Source: Sulfurimonas gotlandica GD1
Lineage (GTDB): Bacteria > Campylobacterota > Campylobacteria > Campylobacterales > Sulfurimonadaceae
NCBI RefSeq assembly: GCF_000242915.1
Contig: NZ_AFRZ01000001.1
Location: 310,001-374,000, forward strand
DNA: 64,000 nt
Direction of reading: 5' to 3'
The first letter of the stretch is position 1. Each line of letters opens with the position of its first letter. Under the pieces are notes generated by a model. The model saw nothing but the letters and a program-made list of their open reading frames with translations. It made no database searches and was not told where the DNA came from. Positions 52,005 to 59,593 of this stretch are shown one piece after another. The position numbers and the translations under genes are program-made.

Positions 52005-52814
52005 CTACTTTTTTACTAGATGCTCTGGTTTCCCCAAGTAAAATCCTTGAGAATAGTCTATTCCCATCTCTTTTACTATAGTATGTATCTCTTGGCTATA
52101 AACAAACTCAGCAATTGTTTCTATATTTAATCGTTTAGCAAAGTCTACAATCAGTTCTGTTACTATTTTTGCACCATTATCATGGTCTATATTTTTTATG
52201 ATTGAACCATCTATTTTAATAAAATCAACATTTAGCTTCATCAAATAATCAAAATTTGAATATCCTGTACCAAAGTCATCTATAGCTATTTTACAACCTA
52301 AACTTTTTACACTATCTATAAAAGTACTGACCTCATTATAGTTCTCAATACCTTCATCTTCAACTATTTCTATTATTAGTCTTTGTCCTAGACCATCATA
52401 CTTCTCAATCTGATCTTTTAATAAGTCTACTATATCTTGATTTAAAATATCTTCTAATGTAAGGTTGATTGAAAAAAAGTCTTCTTTATCTTTAAAATAA
52501 TCAATTGATTTTTCAATTACTATTTTTGTCAGCTCAGGATAGAGTCTTGATTTTTTTGCTATTGTTAAGAATTTAAATGGAGATATAACTGTTCCATCTG
52601 TATCTATCATACGAATCAAACACTCATACTTTTTTGCGCACGTAGATGTATTACATACTATTGGCTGAGCAAACATAACTATTCTGTCATCTTCTATCGC
52701 AGCTTTTAATTTTTTAGTCCAATTTACATTGTTCTCAAGTTGCTCTTTTATCTCTATATTTTCATCAAAAAATACAAACTCTTCATTATTTAACTTAGCA
52801 TGATTAGTCGCCAT
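52005..52814 (-). pseudogene. EAL-domain fragment, C-terminal part of an interrupted gene
   Basis: A 269-codon frame with the end of a GGDEF domain (1-40, ending NNEEFVFFDENIEI) and a complete EAL phosphodiesterase domain (about 40-269). Catalytic features are intact: YECLIRM (EAL variant), INLTLED, IEIVEDEG, IAIDDFGTGYS, FIKIDGS and SQGFYLGKP. It starts 8 bases from the IS3 left end and has no ribosome site of its own, so it is read as the 3' part of the gene at 54107-55117. It might still make an active c-di-GMP phosphodiesterase if transcribed and translated from within the junction. Confidence 0.8.
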
Positions 52815-52821
52815 TTCAAAT

Positions 52822-52851
52822 TGATGTGGCTACACTTATTCATACTTAGAA
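52822..52851. repeat. IS3 left inverted repeat
   Basis: Begins TGATGTGGCTACAC; 22 of 30 positions match the complement of the right end, with mismatches at positions 8, 10, 13, 16-18 and 25-26. Confidence 0.8.
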
Positions 52852-52880
52852 ATTAAATAAGTCTAAGCTAAAATAAAAGT

Positions 52881-53195
52881 ATGAAGAGAGTAGAAAATAT
52901 GAAAAATAGTCAGTATACAAGAGAGTTTAGAGATTCAACAATACAGTTGGTGTTAAACAGTGGCGACTCAGTTCTAAAAATTGCTAAAGATTTAAATGTA
53001 AATCCTAAGACAATTTATAACTGGATGAATGAATACAAAAAGACAAACCAAGATACAACTAAACCGATAGCTCAATCTCCTAAAGAGACTTTAGAACAAG
53101 AGAATAAAAGATTAAGAAGAGAAACCAAACTCCTTAGACAAGAGCGTGATATATTAAAAAAGGCAGCAGTATACTTTGCAAAAGAAGTTCAGTAA
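52881..53195 (+). CDS. IS3 transposase OrfA
   Basis: A 104-residue DNA-binding part of the transposase. A helix-turn-helix (about 10-55: [27 protein letters not shown]) is followed by a leucine-zipper-like helix ([20 protein letters not shown]). A second ATG six codons in (52899) is possible. The slippery heptamer A-AAA-AAG at 53156-53162 lies near its end, where -1 frameshifting would join it to OrfB. Confidence 0.93.
53156..53162 (+). promoter_or_regulatory. -1 frameshift heptamer A AAA AAG
   Basis: In the OrfA frame the codons read TTA-AAA-AAG, so the heptamer is in the correct phase for -1 slippage. The OrfB frame is open from here through to 54070, giving the OrfAB fusion transposase. 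Confidence 0.85.
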
Positions 53196-53242
53196 AGTAT
53201 GCGTGGATAAAAGATAATAAAACGAGCTTCAATATAAATATA

Positions 53243-54070
53243 ATGTGTAAAATTTTAAAAGTGAATCTATCAAGCTATTATCATTGGGTTAGAACTGGCT
53301 GTGTAGTTAAAAAAGTGGATAAAAAACTTAATGAACTGATAGAAACTACTTTTATGCAGAGTAGATGTAAATACGGCACAAGACGGTTAAAGGATAAGTT
53401 AGAACGATTATATGGGCTTGTTATCTCAAGAAAAAGAATTGGTAATATTATGAAAGATTTAAATCTTATCGCCAATAAAAAGAAAAAGTTTAAAATTAGT
53501 ACAACTGATTCAAATCATAACTTACCCATTGCACCTAATCTTTTAAATAGAGATTTTTATGCATCTGCCCCTGATAAAAAATATGTTGGAGATATAACAT
53601 ATATACCAACAAGCCAAGGATGGCTTTATCTTGCAACTGTTATAGATTTATACTCAAGAAAAATTGTTGGCTGGTCAATGGATGATAATATGAAAGTTAA
53701 TTTAGTTAATGATGCTCTCATTATGGCTTTAAAGAGTAGGAAGCCACCAAAAGGCTTGATATGGCATACCGATAGAGGAAGTCAATATGCTTCATACTCT
53801 CACAAAGATTTATTAACAGAAAATGATATTATTCAAAGTATGAGTAGAAAAGGTAATTGTTGGGATAATGCGGTTGCAGAAAGCTTTTTTCACACATTAA
53901 AAACTGAACTAACACATCATGAAATTTATGAGACTAAGGCTGCTGCTAATCAATCTATATTTGAATATATAGAAGTCTATTATAATCGGCAAAGAATGCA
54001 TAGCTCAAATAATAATTATTCTCCAGTTGAGTTTGAAGAGCTAATGCTACAAAATGAAATAGCTGCTTAG
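53243..54070 (+). CDS. IS3 transposase OrfB (catalytic part)
   Basis: The catalytic half of the transposase, 275 residues from ATG 53243, but the frame is open further upstream to the slippery site, so the natural product is the OrfAB fusion. An HTH_21 region (about 15-60) is followed by the DDE integrase core: first Asp in YVGDITYIP, second in [11 protein letters not shown], Glu in [21 protein letters not shown] and the C-terminal [20 protein letters not shown] are typical of the IS3 family. No internal stop or frameshift is seen, so the element may be active. Confidence 0.94.
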
Positions 54071-54079
54071 AATTTTATA

Positions 54080-54109
54080 TTCTTTGTATGATATAGGGTT
54101 GACACATCA
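54080..54109. repeat. IS3 right inverted repeat
   Basis: Ends GTTGACACATCA, the complement of the left end at its first seven positions, and matches it at 22 of 30 overall. Confidence 0.8.
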
Positions 54110-55117
54110 AATTTTTGAAAGCATTGTCGAGAGTTCTACAAGAAGTCTATCCCCTGTATCAAAACCATAATAATCATTTATCTCTTTAAACTTTTCTATA
54201 TTTATAATGGCAAGTTTTAGCTCTTTATTCTCTTGTAAATCTTCAATAAGCTTTTGTCTATTTGGCAATTGTGTCATGTCATCTGTAGTTTGGAACTTGA
54301 TTTTTTTCTCTTGAAGAATCAGATCAGTAACATCATGTCTAATGGCAAAAAACTCTTTTATCTCACCATCATAATCAAGAATAGGAACAATAGTAGATTT
54401 TACATAATATGTTTTTTTATCTTTAGTCCTATTTTTTATAACACCCTTCCAGATTTTTTTATCAAGTATGGTCTTCCATAAATTACTAAAAACTGAATTT
54501 GGATTTTGCGGATGCCTCACGATACTATGAGACTTACCAATAACATCTTCTCTAGCAAAACCAGACATTCTACAAAACTCATCATTTACATAAGTAATAA
54601 TTCCGTTTATATCTGTCTTAGTTACAATAGCACCTTCATCAACTGCTTTTTTGTATTCATCAAGTAGTGTTGAATTGACAAGAAGCTCTTTATCTTTTTT
54701 AGTTAACTCTGTTTGAAGTTCATCACTCTGTTTTTTTTGGTAAGTTATATCTGTGATGTAGCCCTCTATATCTACAACTTCACCGCTATCATTATATAGC
54801 CCTATTCCTTGTTCCCAAACCCACTTCAAACTGCCATCTTTAGTATATATTCTATATTCATAACTAAATGGTGTATTTGATTCTAAAGCTTTAGTTACTT
54901 CTATATATGTTAGGTTCAGATCATTTTCATGAATTATAGAAGCATATGACATGCTTTTATTATATAGTAGCTCCTCTATTTCATAGCCAGTCAACTCTTT
55001 ACAGCCTTCACTAACAAACTGCATTGTCCAGTCACTATCATACTTGCATCTATATAGCATTCCCGGTAATCTATTTAATAATTCTTCAACATTAGAATTT
55101 TTTAAATCATCGCTCAT
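54107..55117 (-). pseudogene. PAS-PAS-GGDEF fragment, N-terminal part of the interrupted gene
   Basis: 336 codons: a PAS/PAC pair (about 8-130; MLYRCKYDSDWTMQFVSEGC), a second PAS (about 160-265; GFAREDVIGKSHSIVRHPQN) and the first third of a GGDEF domain (TDDMTQLPNRQKLIEDL to LSTMLSKI). The frame then hits a stop at the IS3 edge. The GGDEF signature and about 80-100 residues after it are absent on both sides of the element. AAAGGACAGGTA precedes the ATG, so the sensory half is probably still made, without an output. Confidence 0.85.
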
Positions 55118-55224
55118 TACCTGTCCTTTAATAACTTATACATTAATTGTATCTAAAAAGTCACAAAACATATGTATTATATATGTATATATATTATACA
55201 AGCAAATCTTCATAACTCTTTAGA

Positions 55225-55230
55225 TATAAT
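55225..55230 (+). promoter_or_regulatory. -10 box upstream of the SulP gene
   Basis: TAGATATAATCGCG lies 40 bases before the TTG start, very similar to the box upstream of valS. Confidence 0.5.
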
Positions 55231-55270
55231 CGCGAAATTTTAAAAATACCACTTTTAAGGCTTCTCACAA

Positions 55271-56809
55271 TTGTTTGATTTAAAAAAATACACATCAGCC
55301 AATATCAAAAATGATATTCTCTCTGGTTTAGTTGTTGCTGTTGCACTGGTTCCTGAAGCTATTGCATTTAGTTTTATTGCTGGAGTTAGTCCTGTTGTTG
55401 GTCTCTACACTGCATTTATCTTAGGTCTAATCACTTCTCTTATCGGTGGTAAGCCTGGTATGATCTCTGGTGCTACCGGTGCTGTTGCTATCGTTTTAGT
55501 TGGTCTTGGTATTGAAGCCACTGCATTACTAGAAGCACAAGGTGCCTCAAGAGAAGCTATAGCAATGGGAGTTCTACACTACATACTACTTGCGACTGTT
55601 GTAGCTGGACTTATTCAAATATCTATTGGGGCATTAAAACTTGGTAAATTTATTCGTCTAGTTCCAACACCTGCAATTCATGGTTTTGTAAATGGTCTTG
55701 CTATTGTTATTGGAACTGCTCAGTTTAAATTTTTTGAAGGTCAAGGTTACATGATGTATGTTTTAGTATTTGTTACTATGGCTATCATGTATCTTCTTCC
55801 AAAAGTGACAAAAGCTGTTCCTGCCGGACTTGTTGCAATAATTGTAATAACGATAGGTGTCTATTTTACAAAAGCTGATACTCTTTTACTTAGTGGTCTT
55901 GATGATATGAGTAAATATGCAGGACAACTTCCAAGCTTTGGGATTCCTGAGTATATATTTAGCATAGATGCTATCATTATGGTTCTTCCATATGCTGTTA
56001 TCGTTGCTCTTGTTGGTATTATCGAGTCACTTCTTACACTTTCTGTTTTAGATGAACTTAGTAATACTCGTGGTTCTGCAAACAAAGAGTGTATAGCTCA
56101 GGGAACTGGAAACGTAACATGTGGTTTCTTTGGTGGTATGGCTGGTTGTGCAATGATTGGTCAAAGTATCATCAACTACACTTCCGGTGGTATCGGTAGA
56201 CTTTCATCATTTGTTGCAGCTGTAGGACTTATTATTTTAGTTGTATCAATGAGTGGCGTTTTAAATGCTATTCCGGTTGCTGTACTTGTTGGAATCATGT
56301 TTATGGTTAGTATCGGTACTTTTGAGTGGTCAAGCTTCTCTCGTTTGAGTCGTATGCCAAAAACTGATGCATTTGTAATGGTTGCAGTTACTGTTATTAC
56401 AGTTGTAGAAGATTTAGCTGTTGCAGTTATAGCTGGTGTGATTATCTCTGCGTTAGCTTTTGCCTGGAAACATGCAAGAATATTTGCACGTATTCATACC
56501 GAAGCTGATGGAACTAGAGTTTATGAGCTTGACGGTCCTCTTTTCTTTGGTTCTGCTACTACATTTGCAGATAACTTTGACATACCAAATGATCCTCCAA
56601 AAGTTGTAATTGACTTTAAAGATGCAAGAGTTATGGACTCTTCAGGTGTTGAAGCGATAGATGCAATAACAAAAAAATACGAAGATGCTGGTAAAAACCT
56701 ACTTCTTCGTCACCTCTCTGCTGACTGTAAAGCAATCCTTAAAAAAGCCGGTCCTCACTGTGCTTATGAAGAAGATGATCCAACATATAAAGTTGCATAT
56801 AACTACTAA
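55271..56809 (+). CDS. SulP-family anion transporter with STAS domain
   Basis: A 512-residue inner-membrane transporter with about 12 membrane segments (about 15-395). The early signature VALVPEAIAFSFIAGVSPVVGLYTA is characteristic of the SulP family. A C-terminal STAS domain (about 415-505) contains VVIDFKDARVMDSSGVEAI. Substrate could be sulfate, bicarbonate or another anion; the sequence does not decide. The start is TTG 55271 (AAGG 11 bases upstream); the first in-frame ATG lies far inside a membrane segment. It is divergent from the interrupted PAS gene. Confidence 0.9.
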   Translation: MFDLKKYTSANIKNDILSGLVVAVALVPEAIAFSFIAGVSPVVGLYTAFILGLITSLIGGKPGMISGATGAVAIVLVGLGIEATALLEAQGASREAIAMGVLHYILLATVVAGLIQISIGALKLGKFIRLVPTPAIHGFVNGLAIVIGTAQFKFFEGQGYMMYVLVFVTMAIMYLLPKVTKAVPAGLVAIIVITIGVYFTKADTLLLSGLDDMSKYAGQLPSFGIPEYIFSIDAIIMVLPYAVIVALVGIIESLLTLSVLDELSNTRGSANKECIAQGTGNVTCGFFGGMAGCAMIGQSIINYTSGGIGRLSSFVAAVGLIILVVSMSGVLNAIPVAVLVGIMFMVSIGTFEWSSFSRLSRMPKTDAFVMVAVTVITVVEDLAVAVIAGVIISALAFAWKHARIFARIHTEADGTRVYELDGPLFFGSATTFADNFDIPNDPPKVVIDFKDARVMDSSGVEAIDAITKKYEDAGKNLLLRHLSADCKAILKKAGPHCAYEEDDPTYKVAYNY

Positions 56810-56893: not shown

Positions 56894-59593
56894 ATGAAAA
56901 ATAAATCTCTTAAATACAAAATATTTATAATATTTTATATTCCTGCAATTGCTCTTATATATTTTTCTTATACATCCGTAGTTCATGAGTTTAAACAGCT
57001 TAACTACAGTTCCGCATTCAAACTATCAGCACATGTCACAGACGTTTTAGCTAACTTTATTCATAACATACAGATAGAAAGAGGTTTAAGCGCTGGATAT
57101 ATAGTAATAGAAGATAAAAATCTATACAAAGAAAAACTAAAACAACAACATACTAAAACAGATAAAGCATATAATGAACTTCTAAAAATAATTAAACTAA
57201 AATCAGAATCTAAAAGAGAACTAGAGAGTATCGTCGACTATAAAGCCAAACCAGTCGTAAAAGAGATAATGCAAGACTTAAAAAGTTTAAAAGAAGTCAG
57301 AGAGAAAGTTTTAAACTCATCTATTAAATTTGATGATGAAATAAACTACTATACAGATATAAACAGAAAAATAATCCTCATTATAAAAATATTTAATATA
57401 TCATTTAAAGATATAAAACATGATACACAATCAATCATTGAGTTGCAAAAACTAAAAGAGTATGCGGGTTTAGAGAGAGCATATATATACAATCAACTAC
57501 TATATGACACCACTGATGATAAAATTATTCTAGAGCTAAAGAACTTTCAAGAAAAGCAGAATGAACTTACTGAAGATTTTTTTGCCAGTTCTTCCAACGA
57601 GTTAAATAAAATATATAACGAATCTTACAATATAGCTGTAGAAGATAAATTGAACTACTGTAGAAATAATATATTAAATTCCTCACTGCATAATACTAAG
57701 GAAGCCGATAAGTGTTTCAAAGCAAGTACAGAATATATAGAAATATTTGCCGGTATATCTACAAAAATATTAGATAGATATAAAGATAATGCAAATCAAA
57801 TGTATGACAAATCATTACACTCTCTCTATATAACTATCTTTTTATGGTCAATTTCTATTATAGCTCTAATATTTTTGACATATATATTAAAAAGATTAAT
57901 TACTAAAGAAGAAAAATACATACAAGAGTTAAGAATAGCAGGTTATGCATTTGATGCTCAAGAAGCCATGGTAATTACAGACTTATCCGGAACTATTGTA
58001 AAAGTCAATAAAGCATTTACAGATATTACAATGTATGAAGCTTCAGAAGCAATAGGGAAAAATCCAAAAATTCTAAAATCACATCTTAACGATGATAAAT
58101 TTTATAAAGCTATGTGGAATGAAATAATTAGCTTTGGCAAATGGAAAGGTGAAATATTTAACAAAAGAAAAAATGGAGAAATATACCCTGAAATATTATC
58201 TATTACTGCAATAAAAAATGAAGATAATAAAACTACTAACTATATAGCTCAATTTACTGATATAACATCAATTAAAAAAGCTCAAGAAGATGCACAGTAT
58301 CAAGCAAATCATGATTTTCTAACAGGTCTATTAAATAGAAATTCTCTTATAGAGAAACTACATGAAGAATTCATAAAAGCAAAAAGACATAACTTTACAC
58401 ATGCATTCTTATATATTGATATAGATGACTTTAAAAAAATAAATGATCAATATGGACATAATATTGGAGATATGTTGATAGTGGAAGTTTCACAAAGGCT
58501 AAAACATATTCTAAGAGAAGACGATGTAATAGCTAGAATCAGTGGTGATGAATTTGGAATCATGTTGCTAAACTTTGATAAAGAAAATTCAGATATTGCA
58601 AAATGTATAAAAGGAATATGTACAAAGATTTTAAAATCTATCTCAGAATCTTTTCTTATTTATGAACATAAAATAGATATAAGCTTAAGTATAGGGATAA
58701 AACTATTCCCAGATAATGAAGAGCTCAAGGACGAAGTTATAATACATGCAGATACAGCTATGAATCAATCAAAAGCTCAAGGAAAGAATCAGTATGTATT
58801 TTTTGACCGTCAAATTGACAATGAATTAAAGAAATATATTGCTCTTGAAAAAGAGATAAAGAATGCTCTTAAAAATAATGAATTTAAATTTTATTTTCAA
58901 CCAAAAGTAAATGTTAAAACTGAAAAAATAGATGGAGCAGAGATATTAATAAGATGGTTGCATCCAGATAAAGGCCTACTCTATCCAGGATCATTTTTAG
59001 ATGTAGCACAAGAAATTGGTGTTATACCGGATATTACCTCTCTTGCACTTAAAAAAGCATGTGAATTTTTAAAATCTTCTACAGAAATTTTTGATGGAGC
59101 AATCGCTATTAACATTAGTTCAGAAGAGCTTCTTAAAGCAGATTTTGAAGAAAATATCATATCAACTATTTTACACTACAAAGTAGACCCATCAAAAATA
59201 GAATTAGAGATAACAGAGAATGACATCATAAAAGATTTTGATTTAGCAATTATCAAAATAAAAAATCTACAAAAACTTGGAGTTAAGTTTTCCATAGATG
59301 ATTTTGGAACTGGTTATTCATCTATAACTTATCTTCAAAAACTACCAGTAAATACTCTTAAAATAGATAAATGCTTTTTTGATAATCTTTCCCTTGATTC
59401 AAACAAAGAACTTGTTAAAATTGTAATAAATATGGCAAAAACATTCAATATGAATATTATTTCAGAAGGCATAGAGAGTAATGAACAGTTAGAGTTTATA
59501 AAAGAGTGTGGATCAGACCAATACCAAGGATTTTACTTTAGTAAAGCAATTGATGAGGAGAGTTTCAACACACTCCTCAAAATTAAGAAATAG
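56894..59593 (+). CDS. NIT-PAS-GGDEF-EAL membrane sensor
   Basis: An 899-residue membrane protein. A helix (about 8-25), then a periplasmic helical domain (about 30-300) whose IQIERGLSAGYI segment matches the nitrate/nitrite-sensing NIT family, a second membrane helix (about 310-335), PAS (about 345-460), GGDEF (about 475-635) and EAL (about 650-899). The cyclase motif reads ARISGDEFGIML, with Ser for the first Gly, so it may be inactive. EAL residues look complete (GAEILIRW, INISSEE, ELEITEND, SIDDFGTGYSS, LKIDKCFF, SEGIES). Net c-di-GMP hydrolysis is the likelier outcome. Confidence 0.9.
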   Translation: MKNKSLKYKIFIIFYIPAIALIYFSYTSVVHEFKQLNYSSAFKLSAHVTDVLANFIHNIQIERGLSAGYIVIEDKNLYKEKLKQQHTKTDKAYNELLKIIKLKSESKRELESIVDYKAKPVVKEIMQDLKSLKEVREKVLNSSIKFDDEINYYTDINRKIILIIKIFNISFKDIKHDTQSIIELQKLKEYAGLERAYIYNQLLYDTTDDKIILELKNFQEKQNELTEDFFASSSNELNKIYNESYNIAVEDKLNYCRNNILNSSLHNTKEADKCFKASTEYIEIFAGISTKILDRYKDNANQMYDKSLHSLYITIFLWSISIIALIFLTYILKRLITKEEKYIQELRIAGYAFDAQEAMVITDLSGTIVKVNKAFTDITMYEASEAIGKNPKILKSHLNDDKFYKAMWNEIISFGKWKGEIFNKRKNGEIYPEILSITAIKNEDNKTTNYIAQFTDITSIKKAQEDAQYQANHDFLTGLLNRNSLIEKLHEEFIKAKRHNFTHAFLYIDIDDFKKINDQYGHNIGDMLIVEVSQRLKHILREDDVIARISGDEFGIMLLNFDKENSDIAKCIKGICTKILKSISESFLIYEHKIDISLSIGIKLFPDNEELKDEVIIHADTAMNQSKAQGKNQYVFFDRQIDNELKKYIALEKEIKNALKNNEFKFYFQPKVNVKTEKIDGAEILIRWLHPDKGLLYPGSFLDVAQEIGVIPDITSLALKKACEFLKSSTEIFDGAIAINISSEELLKADFEENIISTILHYKVDPSKIELEITENDIIKDFDLAIIKIKNLQKLGVKFSIDDFGTGYSSITYLQKLPVNTLKIDKCFFDNLSLDSNKELVKIVINMAKTFNMNIISEGIESNEQLEFIKECGSDQYQGFYFSKAIDEESFNTLLKIKK

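Follow-up and report, generated by a model that had tools for sequence, protein, structure and literature searches.

Deletions linked to insertion sequences (ISs) are a common route of gene loss in bacteria, and what sets their far endpoint is seldom known. Studies of IS911 (Loot 2002, Turlan 2004, Rousseau 2008, Polard 1994) reportedly found that this element targets end-like sequences and is capable of one-ended insertion via surrogate ends; this work is said to have used laboratory plasmids, not natural copies. Host sequences resembling the terminal repeats were there reportedly treated by the transposase as ends or targets, which is what we propose for the locus described below.

Better described is the figure-eight and circle pathway of IS911, in which one end attacks the other asymmetrically and the ends of the resulting circle are separated by 3–4 bp of flanking DNA (PMC2909936). 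Our locus shares this spacing; however, host DNA would here supply one of the partners, and chromosomal sequence would be lost instead of an IS circle being formed. In the IR-targeting of IS30, junction reactions with terminal repeats or other sites likewise reshape replicons and give deletions (PMC9333248), but IS30 does not belong to the IS3 family and its IR-targeting uses real terminal repeats and no host mimics. As for IS3-family deletions in evolving bacteria, adjacent deletions made up 14 of 83 IS events in three populations of the E. coli LTEE; all 14 involved IS150 and none kept a target-site duplication (TSD; PMC11708052). There, as we suggest here, an insertion was followed by loss of neighbouring DNA with the IS at the junction, whereas our locus keeps a 3-bp duplication and has a far edge that mimics an IS end. 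We found no description of natural IS3 deletions that end at terminal-repeat mimics, a weak negative given incomplete coverage of the IS911 literature.

Results

An IS3-family element splits a PAS-PAS-GGDEF-EAL gene

We analysed 64,000 nt of the Sulfurimonas gotlandica GD1 genome (NZ_AFRZ01000001.1, positions 310,001–374,000; hereafter the window), in which a minus-strand PAS-PAS-GGDEF-EAL gene is split by a plus-strand IS3-family element (Table 1). A preliminary description of this DNA had reported the split, and open reading frames (ORFs), Pfam domains and the complete 1288-bp IS bear it out, with the EAL fragment, orfA, orfB and the PAS fragment located where it had placed them. The gene is broken in two pieces. 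Upstream of the IS, the frame encodes two PAS domains and ends, as had been claimed, in the first third of a GGDEF domain (positions 2–68 of the 161-position Pfam profile), its stop being the first codon of the IS. The EAL domain on the other side had been called complete, in agreement with a Pfam match to profile positions 3–236 of 236, and a Met codon that used to be internal now opens its frame. One gene away stands a complete NIT-PAS-GGDEF-EAL gene (56894–59593, plus strand, Pfam), separated from the broken gene by one at 55271–56809 that we take to be a SulP-like transporter gene.

Table 1. Features of the broken gene, the IS and their junctions (window coordinates unless a locus is given)
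Feature	Position	Strand	Basis or remark
Complete 1288-bp IS3-family element with TG...CA ends and TGATGTG(G/T)C terminal repeats	52822..54109	+	
Left terminal repeat, IRL	52822..52846	+	
Right terminal repeat, IRR	54085..54109	-	
orfA (HTH_Tnp_1)	52881..53195	+	ORF, Pfam
orfB (HTH_21, rve, rve_2 DDE integrase core)	53243..54070	+	ORF, Pfam
Putative A6G slippery site; -1 frame open into orfB	53156..53162	+	
EAL fragment ORF	52005-52814	-	open reading frame
PAS fragment ORF	54107-55117	-	open reading frame
5' part of broken gene: PAS-PAS and first third of GGDEF	54113..55117	-	ORF, Pfam, homologue alignment
3' part of broken gene: last GGDEF residues and complete EAL domain	52005..52818	-	ORF from Met at 52814, Pfam
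Candidate host surrogate end TGAAATGGCGAC	52807..52818	-	9/12 to IRL, 8/12 to IRR; far end of 209-bp deletion
AAT, target-site duplication copy, PAS side	54110..54112	.	could be native codon ATT (gene strand)
AAT, target-site duplication copy, EAL side (putative)	52819..52821	.	complement ATT vs homologues' TGC
Homologue with PSDEF motif	L128:9843-11870		
Homologue with PADEF motif	L129:1-1549		

The element has the two-ORF layout of the IS3 family, with a helix-turn-helix domain in orfA and the DDE integrase core in orfB, whose frame is open upstream across the end of orfA. An A6G run at 53156–53162, from which the -1 frame is open, is a candidate for the family's frameshift signal that would yield OrfAB. 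Its terminal repeats carry the TG...CA tips typical of the family, and the 3-bp repeat around the window copy falls within the family's short (3–4 bp) target duplication. Further copies, which the preliminary description had suggested looking for, number one full copy in the rest of the genome (2.95 Mb, single contig), 100% identical over 1288 bp. Because the element looks intact and has this identical second copy, it probably moved recently. In the predicted circle junction with a 3-bp spacer, TTGACA would lie 17 bases from TACACT (by eye); a junction promoter of this kind is known for IS911.

About 209 bp of the GGDEF region are missing

With the PAS part as query, six of 135 genomes in the genus, the strain's own among them, gave matches at E ≤ 1e-64, and the closest same-genus homologues were those of genomes G137 and G145. 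The G137 homologue occupies the same locus, neighboured by the same transporter gene, and its contig ends inside the EAL part; DNA identity is 81% over the PAS part and 84% over the EAL part (77% at the amino acid level over the PAS part). G145 encodes an intact 675-aa PAS-PAS-GGDEF-EAL protein with ~75% DNA identity and other neighbours. The missing GGDEF part is present in both.

Alignment with these homologues, which had been proposed as a way of sizing the deletion, matches the PAS side up to TCAAAA and the EAL side from about TGAAATGG (in G145 from the G). Between the aligned sides the homologues have 212 bases and the window a single ATT, giving a loss of ~209 bp. The earlier claim that a segment is missing from both frames therefore stands, while its size shrinks from the 80–100 residues then estimated to ~70 codons. 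A simple insertion loses no target DNA, and the statement that it would not produce this arrangement is borne out by the ~209 bp missing relative to G137 and G145, with an IS-linked deletion as the best reading. Since the number of missing bases cannot be divided by three, the deletion also destroys the reading frame; in-frame rejoining of the gene halves is ruled out by the alignment. Relocation of the segment was likewise rejected: when the strain's own genome was searched with homologue DNA, the segment had no match, whereas the neighbouring EAL stretch of that query did.

The GGDEF signature of the homologues is degenerate, reading PADEF in G137 and PSDEF in G145. In the window the motif itself is gone; judged from these homologues, it would have departed from the GG(D/E)EF of an active diguanylate cyclase. 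Because of this degeneracy, the deletion probably removed no active cyclase, and the ancestral protein was probably an EAL phosphodiesterase with a degenerate, non-catalytic GGDEF domain. A search of named homologues returned 43 loci and no intact same-species allele, records of the window's own genome possibly having been excluded; the best matches, at 54% and 60% identity, come from two MAGs whose labels read Campylobacteraceae and Campylobacterales.

A perfect 3-bp repeat on both sides of the IS

The same triplet, AAT, adjoins both IS ends, a repeat that the preliminary description had overlooked. On the EAL side, where the window reads ATT on the gene strand, both G137 and G145 have TGC. 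In the gene's frame this copy would place Phe at a residue that is Ala in 15, Val in two and Ser in one of 18 homologues, and Phe in none; a motif pattern selected these 18 among 42 locus ids, and four matches judged unrelated by eye were dropped. Because Phe would stand where the homologues have Ala, Val or Ser, the EAL-side copy of AAT looks foreign to the gene. A perfect 3-bp repeat flanks 6/20 complete copies of this IS group and 5/8 further copies, and L158 has none, which makes 11/29 with and 18/29 without a 3-bp duplication; by chance ~2.8% per copy would be expected, as judged from the window's own flanks. These counts indicate that the group genuinely duplicates 3 bp of target. The preliminary description would have been refuted by a precise 3-base duplication with no missing codons: the precise duplication is indeed there, and codons are nevertheless missing.

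The deletion edge resembles an IS end

Reading outward from the left end of the IS, the gene strand has ATT and then TGAAATGGCGAC. This host sequence matches the IS left end TGATGTGGCTAC at 9/12 positions and the right end TGATGTGTCAAC at 8/12. It lies exactly 3 bp outside the IS, the spacing of the IS3 circle junction, and at the deletion edge, as a deletion by means of a surrogate end would have it. In the rest of the window 9/12 to IRL is reached at 40 of 121,576 positions, and on the mimic's strand of the EAL flank at 2 of 806, mimic included. The chance of an 8/12 or 9/12 mimic at one given place is 0.5% or 0.08%, respectively, for a 12-base comparison length that was chosen after the match was known; with 10, 15 or 20 bases, an IRL match as good occurs at a rate of 0.4–0.7% of positions. 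Further in, the mimic matches weakly (10/18). An IS911 transposase fragment made no contact with the first ~10 bp of the ends (PMC7780238), and the weak inner match counts against the surrogate reading because the IS911 transposase is reported there to bind the inner terminal repeat. Without the IS, the junction would hold 7-bp inverted repeats forming a near-palindrome (chance 0.9%).

Related IS copies often adjoin end-like sequences at 3 bp

We gathered copies and relatives of the IS from the genus, from a 398-genome sample of the order and from another family. Both ends could be identified in 29 copies, which provided 57 usable sides because L064 is too short on one side. Omitted were copies with no recognisable second end (L056, L057, L059, L060, L063 and L144), duplicate listings of one place, and L061, L140, L154, L155 and L160. 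At each offset up to 400, flanks were scored against the ends of the copy they belong to. Among the first 50 offsets, the mean score peaked at offset 3 with 8, 12 and 15 bases; with 10 bases offset 3 came second, slightly below offset 21. At 12 bases, 5/57 sides scored at least 8/12 at offset 3 where 0.25 would be expected, and 0 of 20,000 random draws were as high; the draws treat sides as independent, while some genomes contribute more than one copy. Excluding the window copy leaves four such sides (p=5e-5). Lone 8/12 scores were also seen at offsets 2 and 6 (L149, L141). Flanks in this IS group thus resemble their own IS end at exactly 3 bp unusually often.

Scores of at least 8/12 were found on 4/35 TSD-less sides and 0/20 sides with a TSD (window copy excluded), a difference that is not significant (p=0.28), and with 4/35 the rule that every TSD-less copy has a mimic is not supported. 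As a separate observation, 6/7 of the end-like flanks scoring high at any length are on the left (IRL) side.

Three copies allow a closer view. L163 (G407:C1:352992-354076), from another family, interrupts a chemoreceptor gene from which, by comparison with homologues, ~414 bp are absent at the IS and whose downstream half has Pfam MCPsignal and CZB domains. This copy has no TSD, an 8/12 mimic lies exactly 3 bp outside its left end, and beside 14 homologues its 3-bp spacer fits native codons. L163 was picked by its mimic score and the deletion found afterwards, which makes it a supporting case and not an unbiased count; at the other high scorers (L053, L055, L137 and L139) no gene is visibly split.

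At L157, in the same genome (G407), a simple insertion left a 3-bp TSD and a 7/12 mimic lies at 3 bp, and L161 (also G407) is an uninterrupted version of its flanks, a natural empty site. Because L157 combines such a mimic with a deletion-free insertion, part of the excess at offset 3 may reflect an insertion preference of these elements.

The second copy in the S. gotlandica genome lies in comM (L051:4120-8134; genome C1:1201119-1205133), of which the C-terminal part remains and the first ~287 residues are missing from the locus; in 33/36 matching relatives the comM frame has 492–526 aa. The N-terminal part had no match in the genome, in a search run without a positive control. Its ChlI domain gave two genome matches in other frames (458 and 815 aa), presumably RadA- and Lon-like; the control of this ChlI search matched in 13/14 named genomes. 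The ~2 kb between the IS and def hold three ORFs, one DUF3465-like, one of 129 aa and one hydrolase-like (by eye). The best mimic in the flank is 6/12 at offset 3. We did not retain this copy as a second clear case: its flank resembles an IS end too little to be convincing, and the site also holds ~2 kb of other DNA.

Discussion

The break in the gene is itself ordinary; it is the signature of the deletion that is instructive. We favour a reading in which a recent IS3-family insertion was followed by an IS-linked deletion via a host surrogate end, and for this single locus we give it roughly an even chance of being correct. The IS would first have inserted at AAT on the PAS side of the stretch now deleted, creating the usual 3-bp duplication. 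Normal action of the transposase would be to join one IS end 3 nt outside the other, giving figure-eight and circle. In a second step the transposase would instead have paired the left IS end with the host mimic TGAAATGGCGAC ~210 bp away. The surrogate end would have been linked through its 3' CA to a point 3 nt beyond IRL, at the outer border of the target duplication, and replication of the joint would have fixed the deletion of the intervening 209 bp. Joining of this kind would leave the duplication perfect and place the deletion edge, with the surrogate at it, exactly 3 bp away from the IS.

The reaction could run in two polarities. When the surrogate end attacks outside the IS end, the duplication would be kept, as in the window; when the IS end attacks outside the surrogate end, the spacer would be native and the duplication lost, as at L163. 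The native 3-bp spacer of L163 supports the surrogate-end reading, because it is what this other polarity predicts.

The order of events may also have been the reverse, although we judge this unlikely: ordinary illegitimate recombination would have removed the 209 bp, and the resulting junction, through its end-like sequence or its near-palindrome, would afterwards have drawn in the IS, which made a normal 3-bp duplication there. The TSD would then be fully explained, a possible target would be at hand in the 7-bp inverted repeats of the uninterrupted junction (chance 0.9%), and copies of the group do adjoin end-like sequences above chance, with L157 as a deletion-free example. The IS would, however, have had to hit a ~2-kb gene within a few bases of a deletion junction that it had no part in, and L163, with a deletion and no TSD, would be left unexplained.

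Distinctly unlikely, in our view, is an ordinary IS-adjacent deletion that took one copy of the duplication with it, chance accounting for the match between the AAT triplets as well as for the mimic at 3 bp. Such deletions are common in the IS3 family (14 of 83 IS events; PMC11708052) and 18/29 related copies have no 3-bp TSD, but here AAT/AAT is kept. A chance 3-bp match (~2.8%) would have to coincide with a chance mimic of 8/12 or 9/12 (0.5% or 0.08%), and the EAL-side ATT would have to be native, yet Phe occurs in 0/18 homologues. Of the IS-adjacent deletion put forward in the preliminary description, the link to the IS is what survives as the best reading, whereas the ordinary adjacent form would fit the retained AAT/AAT only by a chance match.

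Homologous recombination between two same-orientation IS copies at both ends of the deleted stretch, also suggested there and made conceivable by the second identical copy in the genome, is very improbable. It should as a rule leave two differing triplets with the native one on the EAL side, whereas the same triplet is found on both sides and the EAL-side one does not fit native codons. Moreover, an element present in only two full copies in 2.95 Mb is unlikely to have inserted twice within 210 bp.

Extending surrogate-end joining beyond this locus, we suggest tentatively, and with more doubt than conviction, that IS3-family transposases routinely use terminal-repeat mimics as surrogate ends and that these mimics, and not random strand breaks, set many deletion endpoints, the mark being a 3-bp spacing in two polarities. 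If deletions do stop at look-alikes of IS tips with a fixed 3-bp spacing, their endpoints would become predictable, and a perfect target duplication would no longer be proof that nothing was lost.

What remains of the gene

The preliminary description had pictured the outcome as a sensor without output and a free EAL domain. In an alignment by eye to PA0861 (5xgb), the EAL fragment keeps the conserved E, N, E, DD, K, E and Q, which we take to be the catalytic residues, and this part of the picture holds. The remainder fits less well: the GGDEF of the homologues is degenerate, no Shine-Dalgarno sequence is visible before the Met at 52814, and no promoter is evident. The region 52700–55300 has 21 promoter-like sites against a mean of 15.1 (sd 4.2), not clearly above chance, and an IS-borne promoter for the EAL piece was set aside on this count. 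A working free EAL piece is possible. The genome has 39 EAL matches at E ≤ 1e-20, and for this reason loss of the PAS-PAS-GGDEF-EAL gene is probably tolerated, with a small physiological effect.
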